Made by a program: the position numbers and the translations under genes. A DNA stretch of 25,891 bases from positions 1 to 25,891 of IMG/VR virus record IMGVR_UViG_3300027733_001470. One strand, written 5' to 3'. Each line of letters opens with the position of its first letter. Position 1 is the stretch's first letter. Below are positions 11,191 to 25,768 of this stretch, one piece after another. The notes under the pieces were generated by a model, which made no database searches, was not told the DNA's origin, and worked only from the letters and a program-made list of their open reading frames with translations. The stretch is from a virus.

Positions 11191-11784
11191 ATGAATTTAA
11201 GCCAACCTATTAAAATTGTAATAGCAATTATATTTGTCACTCTAGTTCTTACTTTTGGGCCAATAATACCTGTAGAAAATAATACAATTGTTGAAGAAAT
11301 TAAAGTAGCAAAAATAGTGGATCCAAAACAATTAAACTGTTTAGCAAAAAACATATTCTATGAAGCAGGCAGTGAATCATTGAATGGGCAAGCGGCAGTG
11401 GCACGTGTAGTAATGAATAGAATCGCACATGGTTTTGGTAATAACCCATGTGCTGTAATATATCAAACATCTCAGGTAGATAAACTAGTAGATGATGAAG
11501 TACAGAAAGTTAAACTATGCCAGTTTAGTTGGGTATGTGAGGGTAAAAATGATCCTAATAAAAACAGTACAAAATATAAACAAGCAGAACAAGTAGCCTA
11601 TAATGTATTAGCATACGATGAATACAAGGATGTAATTCCCAGATCAGCATTATTTTTTCATAATTTAAGTGTAGATCCATTGTGGCCGTATAAACAAGTA
11701 GCCAAAATTGGCAATCATATATTCTATAGTAAGGCTAAAAAGCCTACCCAAAAGCCTACAGTTAAATCAGAAAATGATATATAA
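11191..11784 (+). CDS. Membrane-anchored SleB-type cell wall hydrolase (putative endolysin)
   Basis: A 197-residue Hydrolase_2 (SleB family) enzyme expected to cut the glycan strands of peptidoglycan. The probable catalytic glutamate is E58 in NIFYEAGSES, followed by LNGQAAVARVVMNRI and the CQFSWVC segment typical of the family. Residues 7-25 are hydrophobic with only one short positive region before them, forming a signal-anchor or signal-arrest-release segment. The protein would therefore be exported without a holin and wait at the inner membrane. The ATG has a good ribosome binding site (AGAAAGGA). The Lys-rich C-terminus is probably flexible. It could alternatively serve in infection rather than lysis, but no tail-attachment domain is visible. 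Confidence 0.85.
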   Translation: MNLSQPIKIVIAIIFVTLVLTFGPIIPVENNTIVEEIKVAKIVDPKQLNCLAKNIFYEAGSESLNGQAAVARVVMNRIAHGFGNNPCAVIYQTSQVDKLVDDEVQKVKLCQFSWVCEGKNDPNKNSTKYKQAEQVAYNVLAYDEYKDVIPRSALFFHNLSVDPLWPYKQVAKIGNHIFYSKAKKPTQKPTVKSENDI

Positions 11785-12973: not shown

Positions 12974-13363
12974 ATGGCTTATAGCGCACAAGTAATTGAC
13001 CACTATGAAAACCCACGAAATGTGGGAAGTTTTAGTAAAGATGAAGATGATATAGGTACAGGTATGGTAGGTGCCCCGGCATGCGGTGATGTGATGCGGC
13101 TCCAAATAAAAGTAAATAAAGAAACAGGAATAATAACAGATGCCAAATTTAAAACATATGGGTGTGGGTCGGCAATTGCTTCTTCAAGCCTTGTCACAGA
13201 CTGGGTCAAGGGTAAAACATTGGATGAAGCAACATCCATTAAAAACTCCCATATTGCCGACGAACTCAGCCTCCCCCCAGTTAAAATCCACTGTAGTATC
13301 CTTGCCGAAGACGCCATCAAAGCCGCAGTAGAAGATTATAGAAAGAGATATAATGGCCAATGA
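12974..13363 (+). CDS. iscU: Iron-sulfur cluster scaffold protein IscU
   Basis: A 129-residue scaffold on which [2Fe-2S] clusters are built from IscS-derived sulfur, then passed to target proteins. All cluster ligands are present: C37 and D39 (GAPACGD), C64 (YGCGSA), H106 and C107 (IHCSIL). The LPPVK motif recognised by the HscA chaperone is intact (L100-K104), so the protein could plug into the host ISC machinery. From memory it is strikingly close to bacterial IscU throughout (AYS..VIDHYENPRNVGSF start), with one extra residue in the first third. No iscS, iscA or hscA is nearby, so it would have to use host partners. The 3' half uses C-rich codons unlike its neighbours (31 G/C of 60 at 13261-13320), pointing to fairly recent capture from a host. 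Confidence 0.95.
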   Translation: MAYSAQVIDHYENPRNVGSFSKDEDDIGTGMVGAPACGDVMRLQIKVNKETGIITDAKFKTYGCGSAIASSSLVTDWVKGKTLDEATSIKNSHIADELSLPPVKIHCSILAEDAIKAAVEDYRKRYNGQ

Positions 13364-13655
13364 ATTAGCAAAATTTTTAAACTCACAACGCCGATATCGG
13401 GACGAAACAGCAGTTAAGAAACAAGTTAAGATAGCAAAAGCACACGGGTTAACTACTAAAGATAAAGTAGTAAAAGAACCACACAGGTTAACAAAACATC
13501 ATGTAATGGATTGTGGTAATAAAGAATGTTATATATGTGGCAACCCACGTAGGTCACATAAAGATAAACTAACAGCACAAGAGAAACGTTTATTTCAGGA
13601 TATTGAAAAAACAACAGATAAACACAGTAATGGATTAAAATCCACTGATGAATGA
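13353..13655 (+). CDS. Small basic Cys-rich (putative zinc-binding) protein
   Basis: A 100-residue, strongly basic protein that overlaps the end of iscU by 11 bases. The central segment KHHVMDCGNKECYICGNPR places C54, C59 and C62 next to H49/H50, a plausible single zinc site. The flanks are charged helices (KKQVKIAKAHG and AQEKRLFQDIEKTTDKH). Nucleic-acid binding is possible given the charge. The family is familiar from T4-like environmental phages, but I know no function. Its position among iron/redox genes leaves open binding of iron rather than zinc. Confidence 0.6.
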   Translation: MANELAKFLNSQRRYRDETAVKKQVKIAKAHGLTTKDKVVKEPHRLTKHHVMDCGNKECYICGNPRRSHKDKLTAQEKRLFQDIEKTTDKHSNGLKSTDE

Positions 13656-13676
13656 TTTACACACAAAGGAGAAACT

Positions 13677-14141
13677 ATGTCAGAAACTATAACTAGCCTA
13701 CAAGGGGCACTAGCCGGCGAAAGCCAAGCACATGTAAAATATAAATATTTTGCAAAAATAGCACGTGCTGAAGGATATGAGGATATTGCAAAACATTTTG
13801 AGCATACAGCAGACCAAGAGCTATTACATGCCTGGGGTCATTTAGAATTGCTTATTAAGAAGCCAGATACTAAACAATGTTTAGAGATGGCAATTGAAGG
13901 TGAGACTTATGAGTATCAGGTTATGTACCCTGAGTTCCGTGAGATTGCAGAATTTGAAGGTAATTTACTTGCGGCAAAAGAAGCACAACATCAGATTGAA
14001 GAATCACAGCGTCATGCTAGTGAATTCCAAACAATACTAAATAAAGCCGAAAAGCGTTTTGCCGCACTTGCTAAAGTAGAGAAGCGTCATGCAGAAGCAT
14101 ATCAACAAAAATTAGATGAACTAACAAAGGGAGCAGAATGA
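13677..14141 (+). CDS. Rubrerythrin-type di-iron protein lacking the rubredoxin domain
   Basis: A 154-residue ferritin-like four-helix di-iron protein, likely a peroxide-reducing rubrerythrin. Expected ligands are E15 (LAGESQAH), E48 and H51 (DQELLHAWGH), a glutamate in the IEGETYEY / YPEFREIAEFE stretch, and E125 and H128 (VEKRHAEAY). The protein stops where a classical rubrerythrin would continue into a C-terminal rubredoxin domain. That domain is instead encoded by the next gene, whose ATG overlaps this stop (ATGA). The ribosome binding site AAAGGAG is strong. It would reduce hydrogen peroxide using electrons from the rubredoxin, perhaps protecting the phage's many iron enzymes; that role is inference. 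Confidence 0.9.
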   Translation: MSETITSLQGALAGESQAHVKYKYFAKIARAEGYEDIAKHFEHTADQELLHAWGHLELLIKKPDTKQCLEMAIEGETYEYQVMYPEFREIAEFEGNLLAAKEAQHQIEESQRHASEFQTILNKAEKRFAALAKVEKRHAEAYQQKLDELTKGAE

Positions 14142-14269
14142 TGGATCATATATGCGTAATTTGCGGACATGTACATGATGAAGAAACAGAAGGAAAATGG
14201 GATGATCTACCAGAAGATTTTCCCTGCCCAGAATGCGGCGGCTTTAAAGTTGATTACGAAACTATTTAA
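14138..14269 (+). CDS. Stand-alone rubredoxin, 43 residues
   Basis: A very short gene that overlaps the rubrerythrin stop by ATGA and itself ends in a TAATG junction. It has both rubredoxin knuckles: C6-V-I-C9-G and C30-P-E-C33-G, with the intervening KWDDLPEDFPCPECGGFK segment typical of rubredoxins. These four cysteines bind one iron atom, and the protein should act as the electron donor to the rubrerythrin before it. It is shorter than normal free rubredoxins because the loop between the knuckles is reduced, as in the C-terminal domain of rubrerythrin. The position suggests a split rubrerythrin, either ancestral or the result of a new stop and restart. Confidence 0.88.
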   Translation: MMDHICVICGHVHDEETEGKWDDLPEDFPCPECGGFKVDYETI

Positions 14270-14817
14270 TGTTATTGAATGAGCTACATGATTCCTCTAA
14301 TAAGTTTGTAATGAACTTGTTAGAGGTTTCTCTTTCTAAGATAACAGATAATGATATTATCAAAAATTATCATCCTGATTACAAAAATGATCCTGCCAAT
14401 ATTTTTTATATATTGAATGATGTACACGGAAGATACAATCGTGGATGTTACTACGTGCTAGAAGATGAAGGCGAGTATGTATGTAGTGCTGGATACAATG
14501 AGTATGACTTAGATCAAACAATAGCACTCGCATTAACTAGGGCCTATATTAATCCAAAATATCGAACTAAATACTGCATGGGAGAATTTATTCTTCCAAA
14601 AATTATTGAAAATACGGTGCAGTACGACCATTTGTATATCACAGCAGACTCACATAATAGTGCAATATATCAATGGTTTGTACGGGCAAATGAAGGCAAA
14701 AGACCTGCAATGTTTAATCAATGGCCCGATATTTATAGAAAATTCAAACCCATAGGAAAAAAGAATATATACTACACTGAACAATATGTAGCAGAATTAG
14801 ATAGGACCATAAAATGA
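14269..14817 (+). CDS. GNAT-like N-acyltransferase (putative)
   Basis: A protein of 182 residues from ATG 14269, or 168 from ATG 14311 (MNLLEVSL), which would begin with a natural first strand. The pattern of strands and helices agrees with a GNAT fold: YYVLEDEGEYVCSAGYNEYD as a central hairpin, then HLYITADSHNSAIYQWFVRA as the helix and strand after the acyl-CoA site, and KKNIYYTEQYVAEL at the end. No clear pyrophosphate-binding Q/RxxGxG/A loop is visible, so the donor may not be acetyl-CoA. Its stop overlaps the start of an acyl carrier protein (ATGA). GNAT-fold enzymes that use acyl-ACP are known (LuxI-type and N-acyl amino acid synthases), making this a reasonable candidate. The first 60 bases overlap a strong hairpin. 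Confidence 0.55.
   Translation: MLLNELHDSSNKFVMNLLEVSLSKITDNDIIKNYHPDYKNDPANIFYILNDVHGRYNRGCYYVLEDEGEYVCSAGYNEYDLDQTIALALTRAYINPKYRTKYCMGEFILPKIIENTVQYDHLYITADSHNSAIYQWFVRANEGKRPAMFNQWPDIYRKFKPIGKKNIYYTEQYVAELDRTIK
14294..14336 (+). terminator. Strong hairpin with T-rich tail: terminator or attenuator
   Basis: CCTCTAATAAGTTT (14294-14307) pairs with GAACTTGTTAGAGG (14313-14326) over 14 positions, two of them G-U, around a 5-base loop. A pyrimidine stretch, TTTCTCTTTC, follows immediately. This is the look of an intrinsic terminator after the rubredoxin gene. It also lies within the first codons of the GNAT-like gene if that gene starts at 14269; the alternative ATG at 14311 lies at the loop/stem junction. 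It may separate the redox genes from the biosynthetic module or act as an attenuator. Confidence 0.55.
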
Positions 14818-15032
14818 CAGACCAAGAAAAAATTAAATTTATTGAAGATGCAGTTTTAACGCTTTTTAAAAAAACTATTAAATTATCACCGACGGATAAT
14901 CTTTTAGAAGTAGGTTTGGACTCATTAGATGTAGTTGAGTTACAAGTGTATTATGAGGAAGTTACTGCTAATGAAGTAAGTGATGATGCAAAAGCATCCA
15001 CTGTTGCTGAGTTAATGTCGCTTATGAAATGA
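14814..15032 (+). CDS. Acyl carrier protein
   Basis: A 72-residue acidic, helical carrier protein. S37 in GLDSLDVVELQ is the expected attachment site of the 4'-phosphopantetheine arm, added by a host phosphopantetheinyl transferase; none is encoded here. The protein would hold an acyl or aminoacyl group as a thioester. Helix 2 (DSLDVVELQVYYEEV) and the final TVAELMSLMK helix match the family. The sequence diverges from typical FabF-linked ACP, hinting at a specialised carrier. It overlaps the GNAT-like gene before it and the PP-loop ATPase after it (both ATGA), so the three are likely made together and may interact. Confidence 0.9.
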   Translation: MTDQEKIKFIEDAVLTLFKKTIKLSPTDNLLEVGLDSLDVVELQVYYEEVTANEVSDDAKASTVAELMSLMK

Positions 15033-15958
15033 ACTTCACATATAAAAATCACTTAACGTATTCAATTGGCGATATATTATTTGGTAATCGTGAGACACCT
15101 TGTGATAAATTTAAAGTGAATGTAGGTAAAATAGACCTGGATTACTATAAAACAAGTAATTGGTTAGAAGAACAATATCGTACTGCTGACTTGATACACA
15201 AAGAATATGGCAATGATTTTGTAGTAATGTTTAGCGGCGGCACTGATAGTGAAATAGTATTGCGAGCCTTTAAGCATATTGGAGTAAACCCTAGAGTTGT
15301 TTTTATTAAATTTAAAAATGATTACAACATTTCTGACTATCAAATAGCACAACGTATCACGGATGATATAGGTATGAAATTGGAATCAGTTGAATTTGAT
15401 GTAAAGGATTTTTATCATAGTGGTCAAGCATATGAATTTGCCGCAGATATACAATGTAGACAAATGGCATATTTAACGGTTTATCATCATATTCGTCAAA
15501 TGAAATTACCGGCAATTATGGGCGGGGAAATGATGTTACGTAGACATACTTTTCTAAATGGCAGTAAATGGTATTATTGTTTCAGAGAAAATGAAGATGC
15601 TAGTGCAATGCGATTTAGTTTAAAATATGGTATTCCATTAGTCAATGAATGGTTTAGCTATACTCCCGAAATGATGGGATATTACTTAGAGCACCCTAAA
15701 ATACAATGGCTAATTACGGAACGATATAATTATAAAACATCTAGTGTAAGTTCTAAGAATGATATTCTTAAAGAATTAATGCCTGATATCTTAGATAAAG
15801 TAAAAACACACGGTTATGAAAAATTGATGGGTTTTAACGGAGAAACCTACAATTCATTATATTTAAGTCATACCAAAAGATTAGAATCTAGTTTAGACGG
15901 AATCTTTATAGATGATTTGTACGCACAATTATTTGGGGAAAACTATGTCGGTTGTTAA
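15029..15958 (+). CDS. PP-loop ATP pyrophosphatase (adenylating synthetase-like) 1
   Basis: A 309-residue protein of the adenine nucleotide alpha hydrolase superfamily. The ATP-binding PP-loop is S69-G-G-T-D-S74-E in FVVMFSGGTDSEIVLRAF, followed by a strand with VVFIKF and a QRITDDIG helix typical of the fold. Enzymes of this group adenylate a carbonyl or carboxyl group and then attach nitrogen or sulfur (asparagine synthetase, QueC, ExsB, WbpG). A glutaminase domain and zinc site are absent, so the nitrogen donor would be free ammonia, an amine or another protein. GGEMMLRRHTF may line the substrate pocket. It directly follows the acyl carrier protein by ATGA overlap. Confidence 0.75.
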   Translation: MNFTYKNHLTYSIGDILFGNRETPCDKFKVNVGKIDLDYYKTSNWLEEQYRTADLIHKEYGNDFVVMFSGGTDSEIVLRAFKHIGVNPRVVFIKFKNDYNISDYQIAQRITDDIGMKLESVEFDVKDFYHSGQAYEFAADIQCRQMAYLTVYHHIRQMKLPAIMGGEMMLRRHTFLNGSKWYYCFRENEDASAMRFSLKYGIPLVNEWFSYTPEMMGYYLEHPKIQWLITERYNYKTSSVSSKNDILKELMPDILDKVKTHGYEKLMGFNGETYNSLYLSHTKRLESSLDGIFIDDLYAQLFGENYVGC

Positions 15959-16535
15959 ATTAACAAGTAAACATGCACTTGCTGTTAGAGATATTTTTAA
16001 ACATTCAAAATATATGGGAATTGATAGTGATAAGGTATATCAAGTAGAAAATACCGGGTTAAATGCACTAACTTATGATATATTTTGTGCTAACTATTTG
16101 AGTGATTTGAATAATTATCATGCGTTTGGCTATGTGAAAGATGGAATAGTAAAAGCATTAATATCATTTTATGAAAGTGTAGAAGAACCAAGTTGGTTTT
16201 ATACTTTATATAGAAGCTCCGGCGATAATAATTTATTAAAAGAAGTATTAGATGAAGTTATAAAATACAACGAAAGTAATGGAAGATTAAAGTTTTATAC
16301 ATTGACTCATAGCAGACATACTAGACTTTTAAGAAGATTCCATTGGAGTAAATATAACAATGAGCGTTATGGATATTTTGATGAATTCATTGTACCATCA
16401 AAAAATAAATGTTTTTATGTAAATGCATGGGAATTGCTATATAAGAGACTACTATTACCAGAAGATTCAATTGTAAGATGTAATTATTTAAAACAAGAAT
16501 ATAGGAATATATTACCAATTGGAGGAAATTTATGA
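15945..16535 (+). CDS. GNAT-like acyltransferase 2 (putative)
   Basis: A 196-residue protein. I choose ATG 15945 (MSVVKLTSKHA) because GGGG lies just upstream and it gives a normal GNAT first strand; the frame remains open further upstream inside the PP-loop gene. The strand-helix order fits GNAT: AFGYVKDGIVKALISFY as the central hairpin, WFYTLYRSS, a KEVLDEVIKYNE helix, FYTLTHSRHTRLLRRF, and a final strand FDEFIVPSKNKCFYVNAW. No textbook acetyl-CoA loop is obvious. It is basic in its C-terminal half. It ends by ATGA overlap with the desaturase, suggesting a shared acyl pathway. An unrelated fold is possible. Confidence 0.5.
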   Translation: MSVVKLTSKHALAVRDIFKHSKYMGIDSDKVYQVENTGLNALTYDIFCANYLSDLNNYHAFGYVKDGIVKALISFYESVEEPSWFYTLYRSSGDNNLLKEVLDEVIKYNESNGRLKFYTLTHSRHTRLLRRFHWSKYNNERYGYFDEFIVPSKNKCFYVNAWELLYKRLLLPEDSIVRCNYLKQEYRNILPIGGNL

Positions 16536-17326
16536 ATTATCTACAAACAATATCCAAATCATTTTGGTTTCAATTTGTTCCTGCATGGATATTTGGGCTA
16601 CTTACAATTGGACTACTTGTAGTTGGTGTTATACCTCCATACTATCTTATTGCAACATTCATTATGTGGGTATTAGTTTGCGGTTTGGGAATCGCTGTAG
16701 GATATCATAGAGTATTCAGTCATAGAACATATCACTTACCTAGATGGAAAGAGAATATTATTCTATTCTTTGCTACATTTGCAGGTCAAGGTGGAAGTAT
16801 ATTTTGGGCGGCAATGCATAGAGGATACCATCATCCACATAGCGACACTGTAAAAGACTTGCATAGCCCAATTACATATGATAAGAAAACTGCGTTTGTG
16901 GGATGGTACTTTAAAGTTACTGAGAAAGATAACCCCATTGGTTTAAAATATGCAGTTGACTTGTTAAGAAAACCAAATCATGTATTCTTCCACAAACATA
17001 GTATTAAAATACTATGGACAGTTCCTGCATTAGTTGCAATGTTTGACTGGAAGTTAGCATTAACTGCATTTTGGTTGGTAACATTAATTGGATCTACACA
17101 AGATAATTTAGTTAATGTGTTTGGTCATGTTAAAGGTTGGTTTGGATATAGAAATTTTGAAACCAAAGATAATTCACAAAATAATATTATATTAGGGTAT
17201 CTAGCATGGGGACAAGGATGGCACAACAATCATCATCATGCACCTGCGTCATATGATTTTGGTAAAGGTGTAAGTGGTAAACGGTGGGAATGGGACCCAT
17301 GTAACATTTTTAAAGTTTTGCTATGA
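16532..17326 (+). CDS. Membrane fatty-acyl desaturase
   Basis: A 264-residue integral membrane di-iron desaturase of the stearoyl-CoA/delta-9 type. All three histidine boxes are present: H59-x4-H64 (YHRVFSH), H96-x3-H100-H101 (HRGYHHPH), and H231-x2-H234-H235 (HNNHHHAP). Hydrophobic segments at about 17-55 and 75-95, and in the region 161-180, give the expected four-helix topology, with the boxes on the cytoplasmic side. It would insert a double bond into an acyl chain, either acyl-CoA, acyl-ACP or membrane lipid. A strong ribosome binding site (GGAGG) precedes the ATG, suggesting good expression. Sitting two genes after an acyl carrier protein, it may act on the chain that carrier holds, or it may adjust host membrane fluidity during infection. 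Confidence 0.92.
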   Translation: MNYLQTISKSFWFQFVPAWIFGLLTIGLLVVGVIPPYYLIATFIMWVLVCGLGIAVGYHRVFSHRTYHLPRWKENIILFFATFAGQGGSIFWAAMHRGYHHPHSDTVKDLHSPITYDKKTAFVGWYFKVTEKDNPIGLKYAVDLLRKPNHVFFHKHSIKILWTVPALVAMFDWKLALTAFWLVTLIGSTQDNLVNVFGHVKGWFGYRNFETKDNSQNNIILGYLAWGQGWHNNHHHAPASYDFGKGVSGKRWEWDPCNIFKVLL

Positions 17327-17922
17327 ATAAAAATGATTTATTTTGTCATTTAGGAAAAGATTTTAAAGTCGATTGGGATGTTGAATCAGTTTTAAGTAAA
17401 ATGAACAATTACATTGTTGATGAAACAGTCGGTCCGGATGGTGAGCATTATCCAGTCAAGAATATAACTTATCCTTGCTTTCAAATATACCCTAGCGGAG
17501 TAAATACAAGTCATACTTTTTGGAAATTCTTTACTGACGAATGTATTAATATTTGCGACAATTTAACTATATTAAAAAACACTATTAAACATGAAAACAT
17601 AAATTCTGTACTTGTTGAACATTTTATCAATACCGCATCATTTGAACCCAGATTTGTAAGATTAATAGAATGTCAAAGATCAGTAACACCACATGTGGAT
17701 TTAAGAGAATATGCACTTAATATAGGTTTAAAAAACTCATCAAACGCAATAACTAATGTTAGTGAATCAAAAGATAAGAAAAGAACCAAAGATATTCCTT
17801 CTTATCAATATCAAATGAATGACAGAGATGTTGTAATATTAAATACTCATCATGCTCATTGGGTAGATTTTATCAAAGCTGATACCAAAAGAATTATAAT
17901 TTCGTATAATTTAAAAGTCTAA
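17323..17922 (+). CDS. 2OG/Fe(II) oxygenase-like hydroxylase 1
   Basis: A 199-residue protein with the jelly-roll iron site pattern: H124 and D126 (VTPHVDLRE), a distal histidine in THHAHWV (H179 or H176), and R190 (TKRIIISYNL) placed to bind 2-oxoglutarate. The strand EYALNIGLKNSS after the HxD motif is typical. It would hydroxylate an amino acid side chain or small molecule. It overlaps the desaturase gene by ATGA. Its TAA stop (17920-17922) overlaps the TAG stop of the converging minus-strand gene (17919-17921). Confidence 0.7.
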   Translation: MNKNDLFCHLGKDFKVDWDVESVLSKMNNYIVDETVGPDGEHYPVKNITYPCFQIYPSGVNTSHTFWKFFTDECINICDNLTILKNTIKHENINSVLVEHFINTASFEPRFVRLIECQRSVTPHVDLREYALNIGLKNSSNAITNVSESKDKKRTKDIPSYQYQMNDRDVVILNTHHAHWVDFIKADTKRIIISYNLKV

Positions 17923-18521
17923 AATATGTAATTACCACCGGGTAATGCAACATCTATTATAACATGAACTCGTCCCTCTTCGCTGTGATTTTCTACCCGG
18001 TGTTGCGCCATATTATTCAATTGGCTTAGCATACCGTATGGTACATGTTCAGGAAAATCATAACTATCATCCCCGTAAAAAAGAACCTTCTCATTAGTTT
18101 TAAATGGTATATGAAATCGTGAATACACAGTAGAATAATCCCCGGGGCTCATTGAATCACAATGTATAGGTATTTTACCATGCGGTAACAAGTTAACTAT
18201 CATTATTTTTCCTAACACAAGCCCACCTAATTCTTTGCTTATCCATTCAGCTAAAGTAAAGGTTGAAGGATATATTACAATAAATTTAGGTTTATCATAA
18301 CATTCAGTTATAGTTAAATTTTCTGCATGACTTCTATTACAATTTTCTCTTAAATTGACCCCGCGAACCCCGCGAATTGGTATAGTAAGGCAATTTTTAA
18401 ATTCCGGCCGATTACCACGAACAGAATCAATATTAAAATTGATCCAATCAATAGTCGCAATTTCTTCTGCGGCAGGATTAAAAACGGCATCTGGGATTTT
18501 AAATAAAGTTTTGATTAACAT
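17919..18521 (-). CDS. Aspartyl/asparaginyl beta-hydroxylase-like oxygenase 2
   Basis: The only minus-strand gene in the window, 200 residues. It has the full Asp/Asn hydroxylase signature: H120-C-D122 (PIHCDSMSPGD), R135-F-H137-I-P-F, distal H174 followed by N178 (QHRVENHS), and R184 (EGRVHVIIDV) for 2-oxoglutarate. It is therefore predicted to be active and to hydroxylate an Asp, Asn, Arg or similar residue, free or in a protein. No signal peptide is present. It converges on oxygenase 1 with overlapping stops and diverges from oxygenase 3. A GATAAATA box lies on the minus strand 15 bases before its ATG. Isolated inversion suggests separate insertion of this gene into the module. Confidence 0.82.
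   Translation of the reverse strand: MLIKTLFKIPDAVFNPAAEEIATIDWINFNIDSVRGNRPEFKNCLTIPIRGVRGVNLRENCNRSHAENLTITECYDKPKFIVIYPSTFTLAEWISKELGGLVLGKIMIVNLLPHGKIPIHCDSMSPGDYSTVYSRFHIPFKTNEKVLFYGDDSYDFPEHVPYGMLSQLNNMAQHRVENHSEEGRVHVIIDVALPGGNYIF
17931..17946. terminator. Short inverted repeat between converging genes
   Basis: ATTACC (17931-17936) and GGTAAT (17941-17946) form a 6-base-pair stem with a 4-base loop just past the overlapping stop codons. In the minus direction it lies inside the last codons of oxygenase 2. No good T-run follows in either direction, so it is a weak candidate for a bidirectional terminator. Confidence 0.25.
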
Positions 18522-18535
18522 ATTATATTAAATTA

Positions 18536-18543
18536 TATTTATC
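18536..18543 (-). promoter_or_regulatory. Minus-strand late promoter-like box GATAAATA
   Basis: Read on the minus strand, GATAAATA lies 15 bases before the ATG of oxygenase 2 (18521). It would give a very short leader with no visible ribosome binding site. It sits in the only divergent gap of the window. Confidence 0.4.
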
Positions 18544-18546
18544 ATT

Positions 18547-18554
18547 GTTAAATA
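18547..18554 (+). promoter_or_regulatory. Plus-strand late promoter-like box GTTAAATA
   Basis: GTTAAATA ends six bases before ATG 18560. In T4 late promoters the box covers about -13 to -6, so transcription would start at or next to the A of the ATG and give a leaderless message. It lies back to back with the minus-strand box in the divergent gap 18522-18559. Confidence 0.35.
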
Positions 18555-18559
18555 CAAGT

Positions 18560-19135
18560 ATGAATATACAAAATATTGAAGATACTTGGAATACTCACAG
18601 GGGGTATTATTTAAAACCAAATATTACAACCTTGTTAGAAACAGTTGAGGGATATGAAAATAGCTATAATGAAATATTAAAAAATAAAAATATATTTACC
18701 GCACATTCGTATAATCCCGTGTATATTAAAACCGGGCCACTAAGAGAATGCATATCATCACATCTTATCAGGGACACAAAAGGTTTGATAAAATCAGATA
18801 AAGATAAATTTGTAGAAACATTTTTATTGTTAGATAGATTAAAAAAAATCATAGATCCAACAGATTCTAAGATTATAACAAGAGCATATGTAACTTGTCT
18901 AGGTACAAAAAAGCAAATATATTCACATTGTGATACTGATGGTCCGTATTGGGATACCATAAATCGTTATCAATTTTATTATACAGGTAATGATGAAATG
19001 ATACAAATAATAAATGATACTATATTTCCGGTTAGACCAGGCTATCTTTATCATTTTGATCATAGGCAAATACACAAATACCATAATAACAGTTCTCAAG
19101 ACTTAATATTAATGGTATTTGATTTAAATAAATAA
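18560..19135 (+). CDS. Aspartyl beta-hydroxylase-like oxygenase 3, possibly altered cofactor site
   Basis: 191 residues from ATG 18560; an in-frame TTG at 18545 is less likely. It resembles oxygenase 2: H123-C-D125 (YSHCDTDGPY), R136 (NRYQFYY) and distal H172 (RQIHKYHNNSSQD). However, the arginine that normally follows the distal histidine and binds 2-oxoglutarate is not seen; the matching segment reads NSSQDLILMVFDL. The protein may use another residue, bind a different cosubstrate, or be a non-catalytic partner. It lacks any recognisable ribosome binding site and may be translated from a leaderless message. It lies 11 bases before the radical SAM gene. Confidence 0.65.
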   Translation: MNIQNIEDTWNTHRGYYLKPNITTLLETVEGYENSYNEILKNKNIFTAHSYNPVYIKTGPLRECISSHLIRDTKGLIKSDKDKFVETFLLLDRLKKIIDPTDSKIITRAYVTCLGTKKQIYSHCDTDGPYWDTINRYQFYYTGNDEMIQIINDTIFPVRPGYLYHFDHRQIHKYHNNSSQDLILMVFDLNK

Positions 19136-19146
19136 TAGGGAAATTT

Positions 19147-20472
19147 ATGTTTTGTAAAACAGTTTGGAACGGAATGCATATTTTACCTGATGGTTATATC
19201 AGATTATGTTCAATTGGTACAAATTCAGATAAAAGTTTAGATATGCAGAGAGCCAGAGATAAAGATGGCAATATTATGCATATACTAACCCATAGTATCA
19301 ACGATATTATGAATAGCGATAAACATCGTCAGGTGAGATTATTTAATACTAATAATCCTGATAAATGGAGCCCTCATTGCGATTGTTGTGAAAATAGAGA
19401 AATAATCACAAATCATGACAGGGAACATAAAAATAAAAGTCGTAGACTTTATTTGATGAATATTGAAAATAATGATGTTGTTTCTGAATCTAATTATTCA
19501 AAAAATAAAATAGATGAGCAGGGCAATGTAGATTGGATGCCCAATTCGTTAGATATTCGGTTTGGTAATTTATGTAATCAAAAATGCGTAATGTGTAGTC
19601 CGGTGTTTAGTAATTTATGGTACGAGGAACATTTTGATTATTTTAATACTAACTCATTTGGGCACGGAACTAAGATAACTGTTACCAAAAATTTAACAAC
19701 AAATAAATGGATAGAGCCACCGGAATTACAATGGTTTGAAGATCCTAGATGGTGGCCCAAATTTGAAGAAATGATGCCGCATTTAAAGCATATCTATATT
19801 ACAGGTGGGGAACCAATGGTCACTCCTGCACACGATATTATGCTTGATAAATTAATTGAATCGGGGTATGCTAAAAATATATGGTTAGAATATGATACAA
19901 ATGCTAGTGCTATTAATGATAAGATAGCACAACGTTGGAGTCATTTTAAGAAAGTGCATATTCGTGCTAGTATGGATGCAATAGGAGATCAATATGAGTT
20001 GATACGATTTGGTGGCAAGTGGGAAAAGTTTCAAACTAATATTAACAAATTAAAACAATATCAAATTGATTCTAACAACAAAATAAAATTAATGTCAGTC
20101 AGTACATGCTTTCAAATTCCAACTTGCTATAGTATTATTGAAAGTGAAGAATGGTGCAAGTCAATTGGTGTAGACTTTCATCTAAGATTTTTAGAAGGCC
20201 CGGAACGGTTGTCTGTATCGTCATTATCAGATCAATCAAAGCAAGATTTAATAAAGTATTATATTGAGAATAAACACAACTCTGTAAAAGCAGATATGAT
20301 TATAACATATTTAAAAAATCATACGGGTGATGAATTTCATAAACCTGATAGCATCAAAGAATTTTTAAAATTTATGAACTATCTTGATGGCACTAGAAAC
20401 ACAGATTGGAAATCTGTATTTCCTAAAATAGTAGAAATGATAGAAAAAAATGAAATATCTAAAATTGGGTAA
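19147..20472 (+). CDS. Radical SAM enzyme with N-terminal twitch-like domain
   Basis: A 441-residue radical SAM protein. The [4Fe-4S] cluster that splits S-adenosylmethionine is bound by C143, C147 and C150 (CNQKCVMC), and the SAM-contacting GGEP motif is at 220-223. Before the core, residues 1-90 hold C3, C21 (IRLCSIG) and C78, C80, C81 (HCDCCEN). This resembles an N-terminal half-SPASM (twitch) domain that would carry a second cluster. Such enzymes modify peptides or small molecules by radical chemistry; the substrate here is unknown and no precursor peptide is evident. It needs Fe-S clusters, which the phage IscU could help supply. The ribosome binding site (AGGG) is well placed. The 3' end overlaps the next gene by 23 bases. 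Confidence 0.88.
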   Translation: MFCKTVWNGMHILPDGYIRLCSIGTNSDKSLDMQRARDKDGNIMHILTHSINDIMNSDKHRQVRLFNTNNPDKWSPHCDCCENREIITNHDREHKNKSRRLYLMNIENNDVVSESNYSKNKIDEQGNVDWMPNSLDIRFGNLCNQKCVMCSPVFSNLWYEEHFDYFNTNSFGHGTKITVTKNLTTNKWIEPPELQWFEDPRWWPKFEEMMPHLKHIYITGGEPMVTPAHDIMLDKLIESGYAKNIWLEYDTNASAINDKIAQRWSHFKKVHIRASMDAIGDQYELIRFGGKWEKFQTNINKLKQYQIDSNNKIKLMSVSTCFQIPTCYSIIESEEWCKSIGVDFHLRFLEGPERLSVSSLSDQSKQDLIKYYIENKHNSVKADMIITYLKNHTGDEFHKPDSIKEFLKFMNYLDGTRNTDWKSVFPKIVEMIEKNEISKIG

Positions 20473-21037
20473 ATTGCCTAAGGAGACTATTGACTTCTTT
20501 TTAATTGAAATATTAAAAAGAAAACAACCAAATATACCGTACCAATGGATCCATTTTGATGAGTATCTCAACAATGAATTTTTAAAATTGTTTATTAATA
20601 CAGAATTGAAAATACAATGTTCAGAAATCGGGCGTATACAAAAAGCGTTTTATTCAGATCCTGGCCATGGGTATAGAATTCATAAAGATGGCTTTAAATG
20701 CCAAAGTGCATTAAATATTGCCATATCATGTAATTTTGATGATTGGGTACGCTGGTATGATGAAGATTATATTAATAGTATATCAACCCTCAAATACTCA
20801 ACCAATTTGGGTAAGAGTAGAAATACCGACATATATGCATATGAAAATGTTCCATTTATAGAAGAATTACATAATGAAATTGGAGACGTGTATGCGTTAG
20901 ATGTAGATACCTATCATAGTTTTAAGTGTATTGGAGATAAACCTAGAATAATAATACAAACAAAATTTGACGGTTTCCCTTCCTTCAGTGAAATTGCCAA
21001 ATCTCTATCTAAAAAAAGTTTTAATAATTTAATTTAA
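20450..21037 (+). CDS. 2OG/Fe(II) oxygenase-like hydroxylase 4
   Basis: A 195-residue protein with a complete 2-oxoglutarate oxygenase pattern: H78 and D80 (YRIHKDGFKCQSALNIAI), distal H156 (DTYHSFKC) and R166 (DKPRIIIQTKF). The spacing fits the jelly-roll fold. It should be active on an unknown substrate. It starts inside the end of the radical SAM gene (23-base overlap), so the two are probably coupled and may act in sequence on the same substrate. The C-terminal 25 residues are Ser/Lys-rich and likely flexible. Confidence 0.72.
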   Translation: MKYLKLGKLPKETIDFFLIEILKRKQPNIPYQWIHFDEYLNNEFLKLFINTELKIQCSEIGRIQKAFYSDPGHGYRIHKDGFKCQSALNIAISCNFDDWVRWYDEDYINSISTLKYSTNLGKSRNTDIYAYENVPFIEELHNEIGDVYALDVDTYHSFKCIGDKPRIIIQTKFDGFPSFSEIAKSLSKKSFNNLI

Positions 21038-21069
21038 TTTTATATTTTTATCTACCTTAAAATTTTTAA

Positions 21070-21077
21070 TATAAATA
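21070..21077 (+). promoter_or_regulatory. T4-type late promoter box TATAAATA next to a start codon
   Basis: A perfect TATAAATA in a 45-base gap ends six bases before ATG 21083. With T4 late-promoter geometry, transcription would begin at the A of the ATG, giving a leaderless message; no ribosome binding site is visible. It probably restarts transcription of the second half of the module. Confidence 0.55.
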
Positions 21078-21082
21078 GATTT

Positions 21083-21682
21083 ATGAAACATATCATTGTA
21101 GATATAAAGACTAGCCTAATCCTATCACAAACTGAAGATTCCAAAGTTGCCACTGCGATCAAAAACGCCATAATAGATGTAGAAGTATTGACAATTTTTA
21201 AGGCAGGCATACATAGTACCTTTTATGATACAATTACCGACCACAATATTAAAAATATGTGTATACTTTATAAAAACAGAATAATAACTGTATTAGATAA
21301 CATTGAAGTAAATACAGCAATCATTCAAAAAAAAGAATTAACATTTACAAAAAAATCAGTAATAGAACATTTGTATAATCTTGTGGCTACTCCAATATCG
21401 CATTGTTCATATTTTATAAATCCGTATATTCCGCATTTGTTCGAATCTATGCTTGCTGGTAATGAAGAAAAATATTTAACAGAATACTTGGAGTATAGGA
21501 AATTACCAAGACATGAGGCAATAAAAGATATTGAGATTAAAATTAATAGTTACAAAGGTTTATTAATTAAGGTGCAATCGGTTGTTGATTGTTATACTGA
21601 GCAAATAATATTAGAGAACGATGTAGAAAAATTGGAAATGATGATTCATGAATTTGCAGAAAGATTACGTATATGGAATTAA
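21083..21682 (+). CDS. Unknown protein, helical C-terminal half
   Basis: A 199-residue protein I do not recognise. The N-terminal half looks alpha/beta (HIIVDIKTSLILSQ and MCILYKNRIITVLDNIEV). The C-terminal 70 residues are a charged, probably coiled-coil helix pair (DIEIKINSYKGLLIKVQ, then DVEKLEMMIHEFAERLRIW). Catalytic motifs, signal peptide and membrane segments are not seen. It is placed between oxygenase 4 and PP-loop ATPase 2 and overlaps the latter by 10 bases, so it may be a partner subunit of that enzyme. It starts right after a late promoter box. Confidence 0.6.
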   Translation: MKHIIVDIKTSLILSQTEDSKVATAIKNAIIDVEVLTIFKAGIHSTFYDTITDHNIKNMCILYKNRIITVLDNIEVNTAIIQKKELTFTKKSVIEHLYNLVATPISHCSYFINPYIPHLFESMLAGNEEKYLTEYLEYRKLPRHEAIKDIEIKINSYKGLLIKVQSVVDCYTEQIILENDVEKLEMMIHEFAERLRIWN

Positions 21683-22788
21683 TAGCATATCAAAGTCGGC
21701 AATTTATTGATCAGGCTAATAAATTTTCAGAGTCTGAATACTGGAAACAATTATTTAAAATTATTGGTGATAAAAATATTGGATTAAACGATAGGTCGCG
21801 GGTATTTAAATTTCCTATTAATACATATGTGCCTGACAGATTTAATATACCTGTTAGTAATAATCAATCATATAGTTATGAAGAATGTGCTTTATTAAAA
21901 ACTCAACAAATATTAGATAGACAGATTCAAATAGATAAACCAATATACCTAATGTACAGTGGTGGAATAGATTCTAGTGTAGTATTGTGTTCTTTTATTA
22001 AACTTTTAGGTGTGGACAAAGCAAAAAAAAGAATTAATATAATTATGAACAAGCAAAGTATTGATGAAAATCCTGAGATGTGGTATTCTTTTATACGTCC
22101 TCACTTTAATGTAGTAAACAGTGACTTCAGTTACAATGATACAGACATTACTAAAATGATATATGTATCCGGTGAGCTAAATGATCAATTATTTGGCGCC
22201 GATATACAACAAAGTTATGAAATGTTTGCCGGCAGCAATAGTCTATCTTGCCCATTAAATTACAATTTGTTATTTAAGTTTATAACAGAAGGTAAAAAAG
22301 TTAATGCCAATGCGGCGCATTTTTGGACAAGTGTTTTTATTAAAAATTTAGAATCGTGTCCCCGGACAGATCATACAATGTGGGATGTATTTTGGTGGTA
22401 CAATTTTACATGGAAATGGATTTATGTTTATTATAGAGTATTCCTGTTTAGTAGGATAGCTACAGAGGTTGATACTGACTGGATTGAAAAAGACTACTTT
22501 CCTTTCTTTAGTTCAGATGAATTTCAATTGTGGTCAATGTATTCAGATGAGCCTAAAAATTACGGGTCTTGGGATTCGTATAAATTTACTGCTAAAAAGT
22601 TAGTAAGTAATTTTATTGGAACTGATTTTTATATGCAAAAAACTAAAAGACAAAGTTTAAAAAATATTGTATATTTAAGACAACGAAGTGGTTCATTAAG
22701 TGGTGATTTAAAAATTTATAAAAATTTAGATATCAATACGGTGTATCAATCAGATAATATAATTAAAAATTATGAAAAGAATTTATAA
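21673..22788 (+). CDS. PP-loop ATP pyrophosphatase 2, asparagine-synthase-like
   Basis: A 371-residue protein with an intact PP-loop, S96-G-G-I-D-S101-S in IYLMYSGGIDSSVVL. Downstream, VSGELNDQLFGADIQQSYEM resembles the GELGDELFGG segment of the asparagine synthetase C domain, where substrate and magnesium-pyrophosphate are held. The N-terminal 75 residues do not form a glutaminase domain and lack an N-terminal cysteine, so this is a synthetase domain alone. This resembles beta-lactam-synthetase-type or other amide-forming relatives more than true asparagine synthetase. Expected chemistry is adenylation of a carboxylate followed by attack of an amine. It overlaps PP-loop ATPase 3 by 17 bases. 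Confidence 0.75.
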   Translation: MELIAYQSRQFIDQANKFSESEYWKQLFKIIGDKNIGLNDRSRVFKFPINTYVPDRFNIPVSNNQSYSYEECALLKTQQILDRQIQIDKPIYLMYSGGIDSSVVLCSFIKLLGVDKAKKRINIIMNKQSIDENPEMWYSFIRPHFNVVNSDFSYNDTDITKMIYVSGELNDQLFGADIQQSYEMFAGSNSLSCPLNYNLLFKFITEGKKVNANAAHFWTSVFIKNLESCPRTDHTMWDVFWWYNFTWKWIYVYYRVFLFSRIATEVDTDWIEKDYFPFFSSDEFQLWSMYSDEPKNYGSWDSYKFTAKKLVSNFIGTDFYMQKTKRQSLKNIVYLRQRSGSLSGDLKIYKNLDINTVYQSDNIIKNYEKNL

Positions 22789-23659
22789 TTTTAATCCAGT
22801 CTCTTTTGAATTTAGTTACTCGTTAGACGGTATTGATGATATAACCACAATTGATTTTATTGATGCAATTGATCAAGCTTGTAACAATTTAAAAAATACA
22901 ATTATCAATAATAACTGCAATACTGTTGCTTTATTTTTGTCAGGGATAGATAGTGAACTTATTGCCAGGTCTCTTTATAACCAAAAAATATCCACAGAAT
23001 ATTATTTTCTTCATATATTAGATGTAAACGAATTAGATTTATTGTTGGTAAGAAAAATAGCTGAAAAATACAACACTAAACTAAATGTGATTACAATTAA
23101 ATTCAATGAACTACTTAGTAACATAAGTATTGATAATTTTAATATACATAAAATTTGTTTTCCAACATATGCATCAGTTCCGTATTTAATAAAACATGTA
23201 CCTGACGATTATTATATTGTAATAGGTGAAGGTGATATTGAAAAAACCAATGATGTAAAGTATTCAAAACTTTTTAATGAAAAAATAACCTATTATGACC
23301 CTAATTATCTATATGTACCTATGCATTTAAGCGAGATTTCATATAACCTTAGCCTTGAGTATTATAAGAAAAAAGGTGAGGGTAATTTCTTTAGTACAGA
23401 TTTTAATCTATGGTATCATATACTAAATAGTACTGAATTAATATCAAATGGAAAGTATCGTTACGATCCTAAGACTAATTTTTTACAAAATATTAAAGAT
23501 CGATTAAATTTGTTATCCCCCATAAAAACTTTAAATTTTGAAAATCAATATTATTGGAAATTACTATTTGACCATTTGCATTCTTACGGGACTAATATTA
23601 CTAATTGGTCTAGTGGAATAGGAGATATTGTTAAGATACACCGAGATTATTTAAAATGA
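22772..23659 (+). CDS. PP-loop-like protein 3 with variant ATP loop
   Basis: A 295-residue protein with the general PP-loop ATPase layout. The ATP loop reads L56-S-G-I-D-S61-E (VALFLSGIDSELIARSLY) instead of SGGxDS: the first Ser and the first Gly of the motif are replaced. The following strands (YYFLHILDV, LNVITIKF) and VIGEGDIEK fit the fold. The changed loop may lower or alter ATP use, so it could be a regulatory partner of ATPase 2, with which it overlaps by 17 bases. Base composition is very AT-rich, like its neighbours. Confidence 0.65.
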   Translation: MKRIYNFNPVSFEFSYSLDGIDDITTIDFIDAIDQACNNLKNTIINNNCNTVALFLSGIDSELIARSLYNQKISTEYYFLHILDVNELDLLLVRKIAEKYNTKLNVITIKFNELLSNISIDNFNIHKICFPTYASVPYLIKHVPDDYYIVIGEGDIEKTNDVKYSKLFNEKITYYDPNYLYVPMHLSEISYNLSLEYYKKKGEGNFFSTDFNLWYHILNSTELISNGKYRYDPKTNFLQNIKDRLNLLSPIKTLNFENQYYWKLLFDHLHSYGTNITNWSSGIGDIVKIHRDYLK

Positions 23660-24306
23660 ATATAATTAAAACCAATGAAACAATTTATATATCTGATAGG
23701 ACTATATTATCGGTAACTAATCAATCAGACGCCATTGATACCATTAGTGAAACAAGTCATTGTAAATTTATTATGGCCACACATGCAAAATGTAATACTG
23801 ACGACTTTTCGATCTCTGGGTGTTTTGCAGTAACTACACGTAAAAAAATTACCTTATCAAAAATGGATAATACTGGAAAAATTGTTATTATACATGCCAC
23901 GGGATTTAATGGTCTTGATGACAAAGCTACTATATTGAATAATGTAAATACTCCTGGACATTTAAGTTATATTGATGGTTGTAGTAATAGTAATATAATT
24001 GATCCTCCACGAAACGGTGATCCGTGCGTTAACTATTTGTTTATTCCAAAAAATACAGACCAAACTTTTCATACGCACCCTAGTGTTCGTATCATACTTA
24101 TATTAAGTGGACAAGGAGTATGTTCTTTAAAAGATTCAGAAATACCTTTAATTCCCGGACAGGTATATAATTTACCTAGACACACCATACATAGATTTAA
24201 GACAACCGATGACTCTTTATCTGTTATGGTATTTCATCCAGACAGTGATTCAGGCCCCAAAGATGAAGCCAATCCCATGAAAACTAGAACTTTGATAAAT
24301 AATTGA
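23656..24306 (+). CDS. Cupin-domain protein
   Basis: A 216-residue protein with a C-terminal cupin barrel. H139 and H141 (FHTHPSVRIILILSGQG) and H166 or H169 (LPRHTIHRF) can hold a metal, followed by the IPLIPGQVYNLP turn. The glutamate usually found a few residues after the HxH is missing, so the metal site has three His at most. The first 120 residues may form a second, degenerate barrel. Cupins in such clusters can be isomerases, dioxygenases or binding proteins, including nucleotide-sugar enzymes; the sequence does not decide. It overlaps the PP-loop gene before it by ATGA. Confidence 0.7.
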   Translation: MNIIKTNETIYISDRTILSVTNQSDAIDTISETSHCKFIMATHAKCNTDDFSISGCFAVTTRKKITLSKMDNTGKIVIIHATGFNGLDDKATILNNVNTPGHLSYIDGCSNSNIIDPPRNGDPCVNYLFIPKNTDQTFHTHPSVRIILILSGQGVCSLKDSEIPLIPGQVYNLPRHTIHRFKTTDDSLSVMVFHPDSDSGPKDEANPMKTRTLINN

Positions 24307-24323
24307 TAACAGGAGGTAAGTTA

Positions 24324-24623
24324 ATGATTAAAATTAAAAGACAATATACAAGACCATCAGTAGATATACCATGGCATGGTAATATACTATCATCTACAGA
24401 ATTTAAATTAAAACTTCAAACATATATAGATTCGGGTAAGCATATTTCATATAACGTTTCATTTAGCGAAGATGGATTGCAAATGTTTTATGAGGGAGTT
24501 TGGGCCAGTCGTGAAGATTTTGACGAATATGACGTAGATCCTGATCTTACTCCATACTGGGATATAAGAAATGCATACAACGAAGCAGTTGGAATTACCA
24601 TCGGCCCTAAAATATTTGAATAG
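24324..24623 (+). CDS. Small unknown protein, possibly ferredoxin-like fold
   Basis: A 99-residue protein. I choose ATG 24324 because a perfect AGGAGG (24311-24316) stands seven bases before it; an upstream in-frame start at 24303 would cover that site. The order of segments (a helix starting SSTEFKLKLQTYIDSG, a strand ISYNVSFSEDGLQMFYEGVW, then an acidic helix) could be a small alpha/beta sandwich. No catalytic motif is visible. It has the best ribosome binding site in the module, so it may be made in larger amounts than its neighbours. Confidence 0.6.
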   Translation: MIKIKRQYTRPSVDIPWHGNILSSTEFKLKLQTYIDSGKHISYNVSFSEDGLQMFYEGVWASREDFDEYDVDPDLTPYWDIRNAYNEAVGITIGPKIFE

Positions 24624-24637
24624 ACCTCCTATTAGGT

Positions 24638-25768
24638 ATGATTCAAACAGAGAAATATGGCTATTGGACAGTTAATGATCAAAAATATTTGAACAAATAT
24701 GATGCATTAGTAAGTGCATCCCCAACTACCTTTCCAATAAATTTTCATTATCACAATAACGTGTGGAATAACTTTGATCGGTCTCAGTTAGGCAAACGTT
24801 CACTTAATGAGTTGTATAGAGATAGAGCGCAACAACTCAGGGATACATATGATTATTTGATATTGTATTATAGTGGTGGCGCAGATAGCCACAACATACT
24901 ACGCACCTTTGTTGATAATGACATCAAACTAGATGAGGTTTGTGTAAAGTGGCCCAAAACATTAATGGATGGTATGTTCTATTCCCCGAACAGTAGTGAT
25001 ACCTCAGCAAGAAACTACTGGAGTGAATGGAATTATGCTATTAAACCGATACTTGAATGGATGGCAAAAAACAAACCAAACGTTAAAATAACAATTAAAG
25101 ATTACACTGAATCAATTGATACGTTAAATGTTGATGAAATTTTTGAAAAATTGAATTTTGTAAGGGGTGGTGGTATTTTACTAAACAGTGTAATGTCTGA
25201 TAGTAATCTGTATTTTAACAGTAAAAAAGTATCGCATATATATGGCATAGATAAACCATTATTGTTTACTCATAAACAAAAGATTTATATGTTTTTTACT
25301 GATGTATGTTTGGATCAGGCTGGACGTGGAAACATTGATTCAGAAAATACTGAGTGTTTTTATTGGACGCCTGATTTCCCTATACTACCTTTTGAACAGG
25401 CATATCAATTAGCGTTATATTATAAAGCAAATCCTGATAAGCAAAAATTTCTATGGAATATTACAACTAGGCCACCTGAAGAAAAAGTCATAGTTAACCA
25501 GTTTCAAAATGATTTGTCTAGGAGTTTATTATATAGTAATTGGGATAATCGATTTCAAGCGGACAAACCAAATAGTGCTAGTAGAACAGATAAATTCTTT
25601 TGGTTTTATGAACATCCGGAATTGTCTACTATTAGAGAGAAATATTTTCACAATGTTGTTACTAGGGTAAATATGATTGACGATAGATTTCTAACAAAAA
25701 AATCTTCCACGGGTCCTCAAGTATATGAGGTAACCTCGTCAAAATACTTTTATGTAACCGACATATGA
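24638..25768 (+). CDS. PP-loop ATP pyrophosphatase 4
   Basis: A 376-residue protein with an intact PP-loop, S79-G-G-A-D-S84-H in LILYYSGGADSHNILRTF, followed by the strand LDEVCVKWPK. The preceding ELYRDRAQQLRDTYDYL helix is typical of stand-alone phage members of this superfamily. It has no glutaminase or carrier domain. The C-terminal half is rich in Trp, Phe and Asn and probably forms the substrate-specific lid. The short upstream gap holds only a weak AGG ribosome binding site. It overlaps the Bug receptor gene by ATGA. It is the fourth member of this superfamily in about 10 kb. Confidence 0.75.
   Translation: MIQTEKYGYWTVNDQKYLNKYDALVSASPTTFPINFHYHNNVWNNFDRSQLGKRSLNELYRDRAQQLRDTYDYLILYYSGGADSHNILRTFVDNDIKLDEVCVKWPKTLMDGMFYSPNSSDTSARNYWSEWNYAIKPILEWMAKNKPNVKITIKDYTESIDTLNVDEIFEKLNFVRGGGILLNSVMSDSNLYFNSKKVSHIYGIDKPLLFTHKQKIYMFFTDVCLDQAGRGNIDSENTECFYWTPDFPILPFEQAYQLALYYKANPDKQKFLWNITTRPPEEKVIVNQFQNDLSRSLLYSNWDNRFQADKPNSASRTDKFFWFYEHPELSTIREKYFHNVVTRVNMIDDRFLTKKSSTGPQVYEVTSSKYFYVTDI

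Follow-up and report, generated by a model that had tools for sequence, protein, structure and literature searches.

Several described systems resemble parts of a gene island at positions 14269-25768 of a viral DNA stretch of 25,891 nucleotides (IMG/VR virus record IMGVR_UViG_3300027733_001470; this whole stretch is called the window below). Cassettes of the JamABC and TtuABC type encode their own acyl carrier protein (ACP) together with a membrane desaturase that acts on acyl-ACP. In PP-loop enzymes, a carbonyl or carboxylate group is adenylated and then attacked by a nucleophile. Among GNAT enzymes, FeeM (an N-acyl amino acid synthase), SbzC and SbzI depend on a carrier protein and form an amide or ester (PMC6331615). 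Cyanophages, sea-ice viruses and cryopeg viruses carry desaturases that were proposed to alter host membrane fluidity (PMC7300359). No description of the island's gene set in phages was found in the open-access literature searched. The conserved unit of the island consists of five genes (14269-17326):

14269..14817, + strand: GNAT1, a GNAT-fold acyltransferase in slot 1 of the core (AlphaFold2 model and Foldseek; ATGA overlap with the ACP gene)
14814..15032, + strand: ACP, an acyl carrier protein (PF00550; DSL motif with Ser37)
15029..15958, + strand: PP-loop1, an ATP-pyrophosphatase-type enzyme and the anchor of the cassette (SGGTDSE motif)
15912..16535, + strand: GNAT2, a second GNAT-fold protein (AlphaFold2 model and Foldseek)
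16532..17326, + strand: membrane fatty-acid desaturase, SCD1-like (PF00487, SCD1 profile, His boxes)

GNAT1 is like FeeM-type synthases and SbzC/SbzI in its GNAT fold and in having a carrier protein encoded alongside (in the window and in 21 of the 50 loci described below), but it matches none of the FeeM, LuxI and OlsB family models in Pfam and NCBIfam, and the FeeM and SbzC/SbzI systems are without the set of PP-loop1, GNAT2 and desaturase. As in the JamABC/TtuABC-type cassettes, a membrane desaturase is accompanied by a dedicated ACP; those cassettes differ in their fatty acyl-AMP ligase partner, which has no match among the window proteins scanned. The viral desaturases share with the window a phage-encoded SCD-like enzyme, except that they are described as single auxiliary genes whereas here the enzyme belongs to a multigene cassette. 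PP-loop1 has the SGGxDS motif and the ATP-pyrophosphatase half of asparagine synthetase, QueC and LarE, while its C-terminal half is family specific.

The unit was defined from IMG/VR scans, one made with the PP-loop1 sequence and further ones with alignments of PP-loop1, GNAT1, GNAT2 and the desaturase. The PP-loop1-anchored set comprised 50 loci, dereplicated at 95% identity and each with at least 2.5 kb on either side. GNAT2 was near PP-loop1 in all 50 (as the next gene in 49). A desaturase gene was nearby in 49, a gene of the GNAT1 family (GN1, GNAT71 or f12) in 46 and an ACP gene in 21; PP-loop1, GNAT2 and the desaturase occurred together in 49 of the 50. Anchoring in the reciprocal direction placed PP-loop1 within ~5-6 kb of GNAT2 in 60 of 61 cases, of the desaturase in 71 of 77 and of GNAT1 in 45 of 47. 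The order and spacing of the core are kept down to ~40-60% protein identity while the neighboring genes vary, on contigs of ~5 to 525 kb that differ in what surrounds the cassette. Divergence within the core is also correlated (r of 0.66 for PP-loop1/GNAT2, 0.59 for PP-loop1/ACP and 0.59 for GNAT1/ACP; all p ≤ 0.0005). The co-occurrence seen from PP-loop1 and from the reciprocal anchors rules out chance co-location of the core.

The original prediction, made by a model from the sequence, had taken the entire 11.5 kb as one undescribed module of acyl, amide-forming and oxidizing enzymes and had named scattered occurrence of the genes in related phages as one outcome that would refute it. The core genes are not scattered in these contigs and travel together far beyond chance, and for these five genes the proposal stands. 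It does not extend to the whole 11.5 kb: the genes beyond 17326 belong to recurring families that are patchy and freely swapped among relatives. Because this pool is recurring but variable, we read these genes as tailoring functions or cargo and not as required parts.

Slot 1 of the core is itself exchangeable. Loci lacking GNAT1 mostly have a related GNAT instead, from family GNAT71 (99.7% profile probability to GNAT1) or family f12 (91.8%), the second of which often lies upstream on the opposite strand. Three profile-distinguishable GNAT families share one slot, resembling swappable pathways. ACP accompanies GNAT1 or GNAT71 in 18 of 34 loci, versus 2 of ~12 loci with f12. In one contig (L015, 9237-10004) GNAT1 and ACP form a single open reading frame (ORF) of 255 amino acids. 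We did not use this fusion as proof of interaction because the tcATGA overlap survives in the other frame, and a single-base insertion or deletion, real or an error, explains it.

The identities of the core proteins come from curated models for ACP and the desaturase and from predicted folds for the two GNATs. The AlphaFold2 model of GNAT1 (mean confidence score, pLDDT, of 91) retrieves PDB GNATs by Foldseek with a probability of 1.00 and an E value of 3e-5; for GNAT2 the corresponding values are 77, 1.00 and 7e-7. Neither protein matches the GNAT family models (GNAT1 has no Pfam family at E ≤ 0.1 and no NCBIfam family at ≤ 0.01), and a comparison with solved structures by sequence gave no credible relative for either. 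Translation of GNAT2 may start internally at the ATG at 15945 (MSVVKL), which is the start position of its relatives. ACP passes the Pfam PP-binding cut-off (PF00550, 4.6e-5; 24 versus 20.8 bits), profile comparison pairs it with ACPs of solved structure (9e-12), and Ser37 of the DSL motif, the phosphopantetheine serine, is invariant across 16 aligned sequences. GNAT1 likely transfers an acyl group from this ACP. The desaturase passes its cut-off as well (PF00487, 7e-12; 46.1 versus 29.7 bits), matches the SCD1 profile at 1.6e-19 and contains the His boxes HRVFSH, HRGYHH and HNNHH, with invariant histidines at 59, 64, 96, 100, 101, 231, 234 and 235. Its second box, HRGYHH, exceeds the HRAHH of SCD1 by one residue, and this length is kept in the aligned phage relatives.

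PP-loop1, with SGGTDS at residue 69, is harder to place. Its best NCBIfam match is AsnB (TIGR01536, 3.6e-5), over residues 64-157 only and at 23 bits versus a cut-off of 267. In Pfam it reaches 14.7 bits versus 21 for asparagine synthetase (PF00733) and otherwise matches the PP-loop clan weakly. Asparagine synthetase was rejected as an identity: both scores fall below their cut-offs, and the profile alignment with AsnB proteins of Bdellovibrionota spans 70 columns only. Residues S69, G70, G71, D73, S74, E75, N100, K243, K259, G262 and E264 are constant in the phage and Bdellovibrionota sets. These residues lie in both halves of the protein, and thus both halves are under constraint. PP-loop1 is presumed to activate a carboxylate or amide.

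The remaining eleven ORFs of the island are as follows:

17323..17922, + strand: OG1, 2-oxoglutarate (2OG)/Fe(II) oxygenase-like, variable tailoring (HVD at 124)
17919..18521, - strand: Asp/Asn beta-hydroxylase-type (AspH) oxygenase, variable tailoring (PF05118)
18545..19135, + strand: OG3, 2OG/Fe oxygenase-like, variable tailoring (HCD at 128; profile link to the AspH family)
19147..20472, + strand: radical S-adenosylmethionine (SAM)/SPASM "twitch" enzyme, variable tailoring (PF04055, NF033640)
20450..21037, + strand: OG4, 2OG/Fe oxygenase-like, variable tailoring (HKD at 78)
21083..21682, + strand: island protein of no confident family, with relatives only on the same contig
21673..22788, + strand: PP-loop2, SGGIDS, variable (motif; profile link to PP-loop1)
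22772..23659, + strand: PP-loop3, degenerate SGIDSE, variable (motif)
23656..24306, + strand: cupin, variable (PF07883)
24303..24623, + strand: small protein of no confident family, with homologs in few loci
24638..25768, + strand: PP-loop4, SGGADS, variable (motif; profile link to PP-loop1)

Near PP-loop1, at least one 2OG-type gene occurs in 41 of the 50 loci and a radical SAM gene in 17. Families of both kinds cluster by the core, making up 31% of the ORFs at 1.5-3 kb versus ~10% at 6-9 kb. Counted by family, OG1 occurs in 17 loci, the AspH-type oxygenase in 32, the radical SAM enzyme in 19 and PP-loop4 in 27. All four 2OG-like proteins have an HxD motif followed by a distal His, and one of them, the AspH-type protein encoded on the minus strand, passes a Pfam cut-off (PF05118, 2.3e-6); OG1 stays under that of its own best model (PF13759, 0.039). 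Profile comparison links OG3 to the AspH family (98.1%), OG4 to OG1 (92.9%) and to family f53 (96.9%), and OG1 to other 2OG-like families of the island. The radical SAM protein passes the cut-offs for PF04055 (4.5e-8) and SPASM, contains CNQKCVMC at 143 and matches the NCBIfam model N_Twi_rSAM (NF033640) at 2.2e-80, with 270.7 bits versus a cut-off of 170. The cupin passes its cut-off too (PF07883, 1.1e-7). SGGxDS is present in the PP-loop proteins encoded at 15029, 21673 and 24638, and the protein encoded at 22772 has the degenerate SGIDSE; the profile links to PP-loop1 are 92% for PP-loop2 (in the P-loop region) and 97% for PP-loop4.

The gene-level claims of the original prediction agree with these data. 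All of its ORFs exist where it had placed them, and the ACP, desaturase, radical SAM and cupin assignments are confirmed by curated cut-offs. Its two GNAT-like proteins were recovered by predicted fold and not by family models, its four oxygenase-like proteins by their motifs with one Pfam match, and its four PP-loop proteins by the motifs just given. The coupling of genes by ATGA overlaps that it had described amounts to five such overlaps (14814, 15029, 16532, 17323 and 23656) plus one TTGA overlap (24303). The chemistry it had suggested, that is desaturation, N-acylation and hydroxylation, would be consistent with these families.

The window is a fragment of a T4-like phage, because a near-identical 62.7-kb contig (L016/L021, G314) carries a T4-type major head protein (phrog_138, 6e-97), baseplate proteins and NrdA/NrdB. 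The nearest sequenced relatives of NrdA are those of Xanthomonas and Stenotrophomonas phages (54-59%). The 16 ORFs of the island lie on the plus strand in 15 cases and on the minus strand in one, with ATGA or short overlaps predominating, and the island is AT rich (30% GC versus 37% in the remaining window). Its left flank is an endolysin/NifU/rubrerythrin region, in which a NifU-type Fe-S scaffold gene (1e-53) and a rubrerythrin-like gene directly precede the island (12974-14141); these two might support the Fe enzymes of the island. At the right end, a gene for a TctC-like periplasmic solute receptor (L021:16619-17509, from about window position 25765) overlaps PP-loop4 by ATGA. This gene has no PHROG match and is unusual phage cargo; a similar family is present in 13 related phage loci. 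Past the end of the window, eight tRNA genes follow (Arg, Lys, Ser, His, Leu, Met, Ile and Gln; L021:18224-18883).

Outside the IMG/VR phages, relatives are few. A tblastn search of 50,697 sequenced phage records gave no match for PP-loop1, GNAT1, GNAT2 or the radical SAM protein, and the desaturase matched only Pelagibacter phage Mosig and one record resembling host DNA. The latter, Acinetobacter "phage MD-2021a," was not used: its desaturase gene has trp, bae and further genes typical of bacteria around it, and the record is therefore likely host DNA. In one island of Mosig EXVC030M (MT647606.1, ~54-67 kb), a desaturase related to that of the window occurs with a protein of the GNAT1 family, with oxygenases of the AspH and TauD types and with radical SAM genes, and this island is the nearest known relative among sequenced phages. 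It differs in that PP-loop1 has no match in the whole record and GNAT2 and ACP have none in the island, where genes for an aminotransferase, a nitroreductase and a carbamoyltransferase are found instead. The Mosig island (L212, MT647606.1 52771-67283) is two-stranded and adjoins tail-fiber genes. The statement in the original prediction that no single known phage function needs such a set thus holds for the composition searched and is tempered by Mosig, which has a related island without PP-loop1.

In GTDB, PP-loop1 relatives were found only in metagenome-assembled genomes of Bdellovibrionales and, weakly, Aegiribacteria, as a lower bound since the scan requires short exact motifs. A relative is present in 17 of 291 Bdellovibrionota genomes. 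The best locus (L031) has a row of PP-loop1, desaturase, one unassigned gene, a GNAT2-like gene, ACP and a second desaturase, adjoined by B12-radical SAM and 2OG genes; subsets occur in L033, L193 and L199. These clusters are like the island in combining a PP-loop1 relative with genes of the desaturase, 2OG, GNAT and B12-radical SAM kinds, but differ in gene order and have only 17-28% identity to the PP-loop1 of the window. Directly upstream of another PP-loop1 relative in Bdellovibrionales, a gene (L032:3377-4933) was seen by eye to carry SGGLDT and GGEFLGG, a pattern like that of asparagine synthetase.

We propose, with a probability of roughly 0.45, that the island is a phage-borne biosynthetic cluster for a desaturated N-acyl amide, with a fixed core and exchangeable tailoring. 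Carrier-dependent GNATs, ACP-paired desaturases and PP-loop adenylation are each known, and taken together they make an N-acyl amide route the most economical reading. From the observed linkage, gene content, folds and main motifs we infer the catalytic steps, their order, the substrate, the product and a role in infection. A host-made fatty acyl group would be loaded onto the phage ACP, or onto that of the host in phages lacking the gene, and the membrane desaturase would add a double bond to it. GNAT1 would then pass the chain from the carrier protein to an amine, giving an N-acyl amide. At the expense of ATP, PP-loop1 would adenylate this conjugate at a carbonyl or carboxylate and couple it to ammonia or another amine, and GNAT2, encoded beside PP-loop1, would cap or extend the conjugate. 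The 2OG oxygenases and radical SAM enzymes of the variable set would decorate the product, a lipid-like N-acyl amide that may reside in the membrane of the infected cell or be released.

Several observations weigh against this proposal. ACP is absent from 29 of the 50 loci, and acyl-ACP may therefore not be the general donor. When ACP was sought elsewhere in ACP-less contigs, the 22 large contigs searched yielded it in 6, and it was distant from the core only in L079. An AMP-binding, acyl-activating gene is absent in 16 of 18 contigs, and acyl groups would thus come from host fatty-acid synthesis. The comparison of PP-loop1 with the AsnB profile stops before the C-terminal half, which limits an AsnB-like reading to the P-loop half. 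Neither a precursor nor an exporter or regulator turned up, and each catalytic step is assigned from family or fold. In favor of the proposal, the ACP gene of the L079 contig lies apart from the core together with a gene for its own phosphopantetheinyl transferase (ACPS, 7e-20; G306:C1:9954-10121 and 11445-11744).

Among the alternatives, decoration of a surface glycan is the one that survives best, although we consider it unlikely. Here, a GNAT together with a PP-loop amidotransferase would give host lipopolysaccharide or a phage-directed sugar acylamino or amidino groups, as made by enzymes of the PseH and PseA type, the oxygenases would diversify the result, and the consequence would be receptor change or exclusion of competing phages. 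PP-loop1 weakly matches the model of the N-acetyl sugar amidotransferase WbuX (0.0085), some islands include an epimerase family and a likely glycosyltransferase, and the Mosig island holds an amino-sugar-type aminotransferase beside its tail-fiber genes. However, AsnB outscores WbuX as the NCBIfam match of PP-loop1, and the sugar genes fall outside the conserved core, which has a fatty-acid desaturase in nearly every locus.

Slightly less probable still is that the genes remodel host membrane lipids to aid infection, by way of an ornithine-lipid-like aminolipid or of more unsaturated lipids. The fluidity role proposed for other viral desaturases fits such remodeling, as does the synthesis of aminolipids by N-acyltransferases that use acyl-ACP (PMC11631085). 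On the other hand, GNAT1 has no Pfam match of any kind and hence none to Acetyltransf_5/OlsB, the window proteins scanned include no OlsA-like O-acyltransferase, and a PP-loop enzyme with two GNATs is superfluous for a plain change in fluidity.

We regard modification of a peptide or protein as improbable. The GNAT would acylate, the radical SAM and 2OG enzymes would alter residues and the PP-loop enzymes would form amides, on a lipidated ribosomal peptide, a phage structural protein or a host protein. Radical SAM/SPASM and Asp/Asn hydroxylase families do act on peptides elsewhere, and the island contains small unassigned ORFs such as 24303-24623. Yet the gene-family survey of the loci revealed no conserved small ORF alongside the core, and the radical SAM gene lies near the core in just the 17 loci counted above. 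Accumulation of unrelated auxiliary genes at a plastic site, which would mimic a pathway, suits most genes beyond 17326 and a location next to eight tRNA genes but is very improbable as an account of the core, for which it is rejected by the fixed order, near-universal co-occurrence from four anchors, correlated divergence and unrelated contexts. A defense function received no credible support: PADLOC, run on ten window proteins, matched nothing beyond QueC (9e-5, in the PP-loop region) and JetC (0.006), both weakly.

Islands of auxiliary genes are already known in phages. The combination seen here, an invariant acyl/amide core plus exchangeable tailoring genes, is absent from sequenced phages, the partial relative in Mosig aside, and did not turn up in the literature searched. 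The usual reading of auxiliary genes in phages is that they boost host pathways, and a fixed core with swappable tailoring is instead the architecture of specialized metabolism. It is a tentative suggestion that uncultured T4-like and other large phages share a widespread, hitherto undescribed, natural-product-like pathway family, in which an unsaturated N-acyl amide is diversified from phage to phage and which has distant cousins in predatory bacteria. If so, rivalry among phages, or between phage and host, would be what drives the variation in decoration. Should a defined molecule be the outcome, the PP-loop1, GNAT1 and GNAT2 families, which are without a confident entry in Pfam or PHROGs, would gain a function. 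The Bdellovibrionota clusters offer a cellular comparison and phage Mosig a sequenced relative as a starting point. If a defined molecule is made, lytic-type phages would assemble chemicals of their own during infection.

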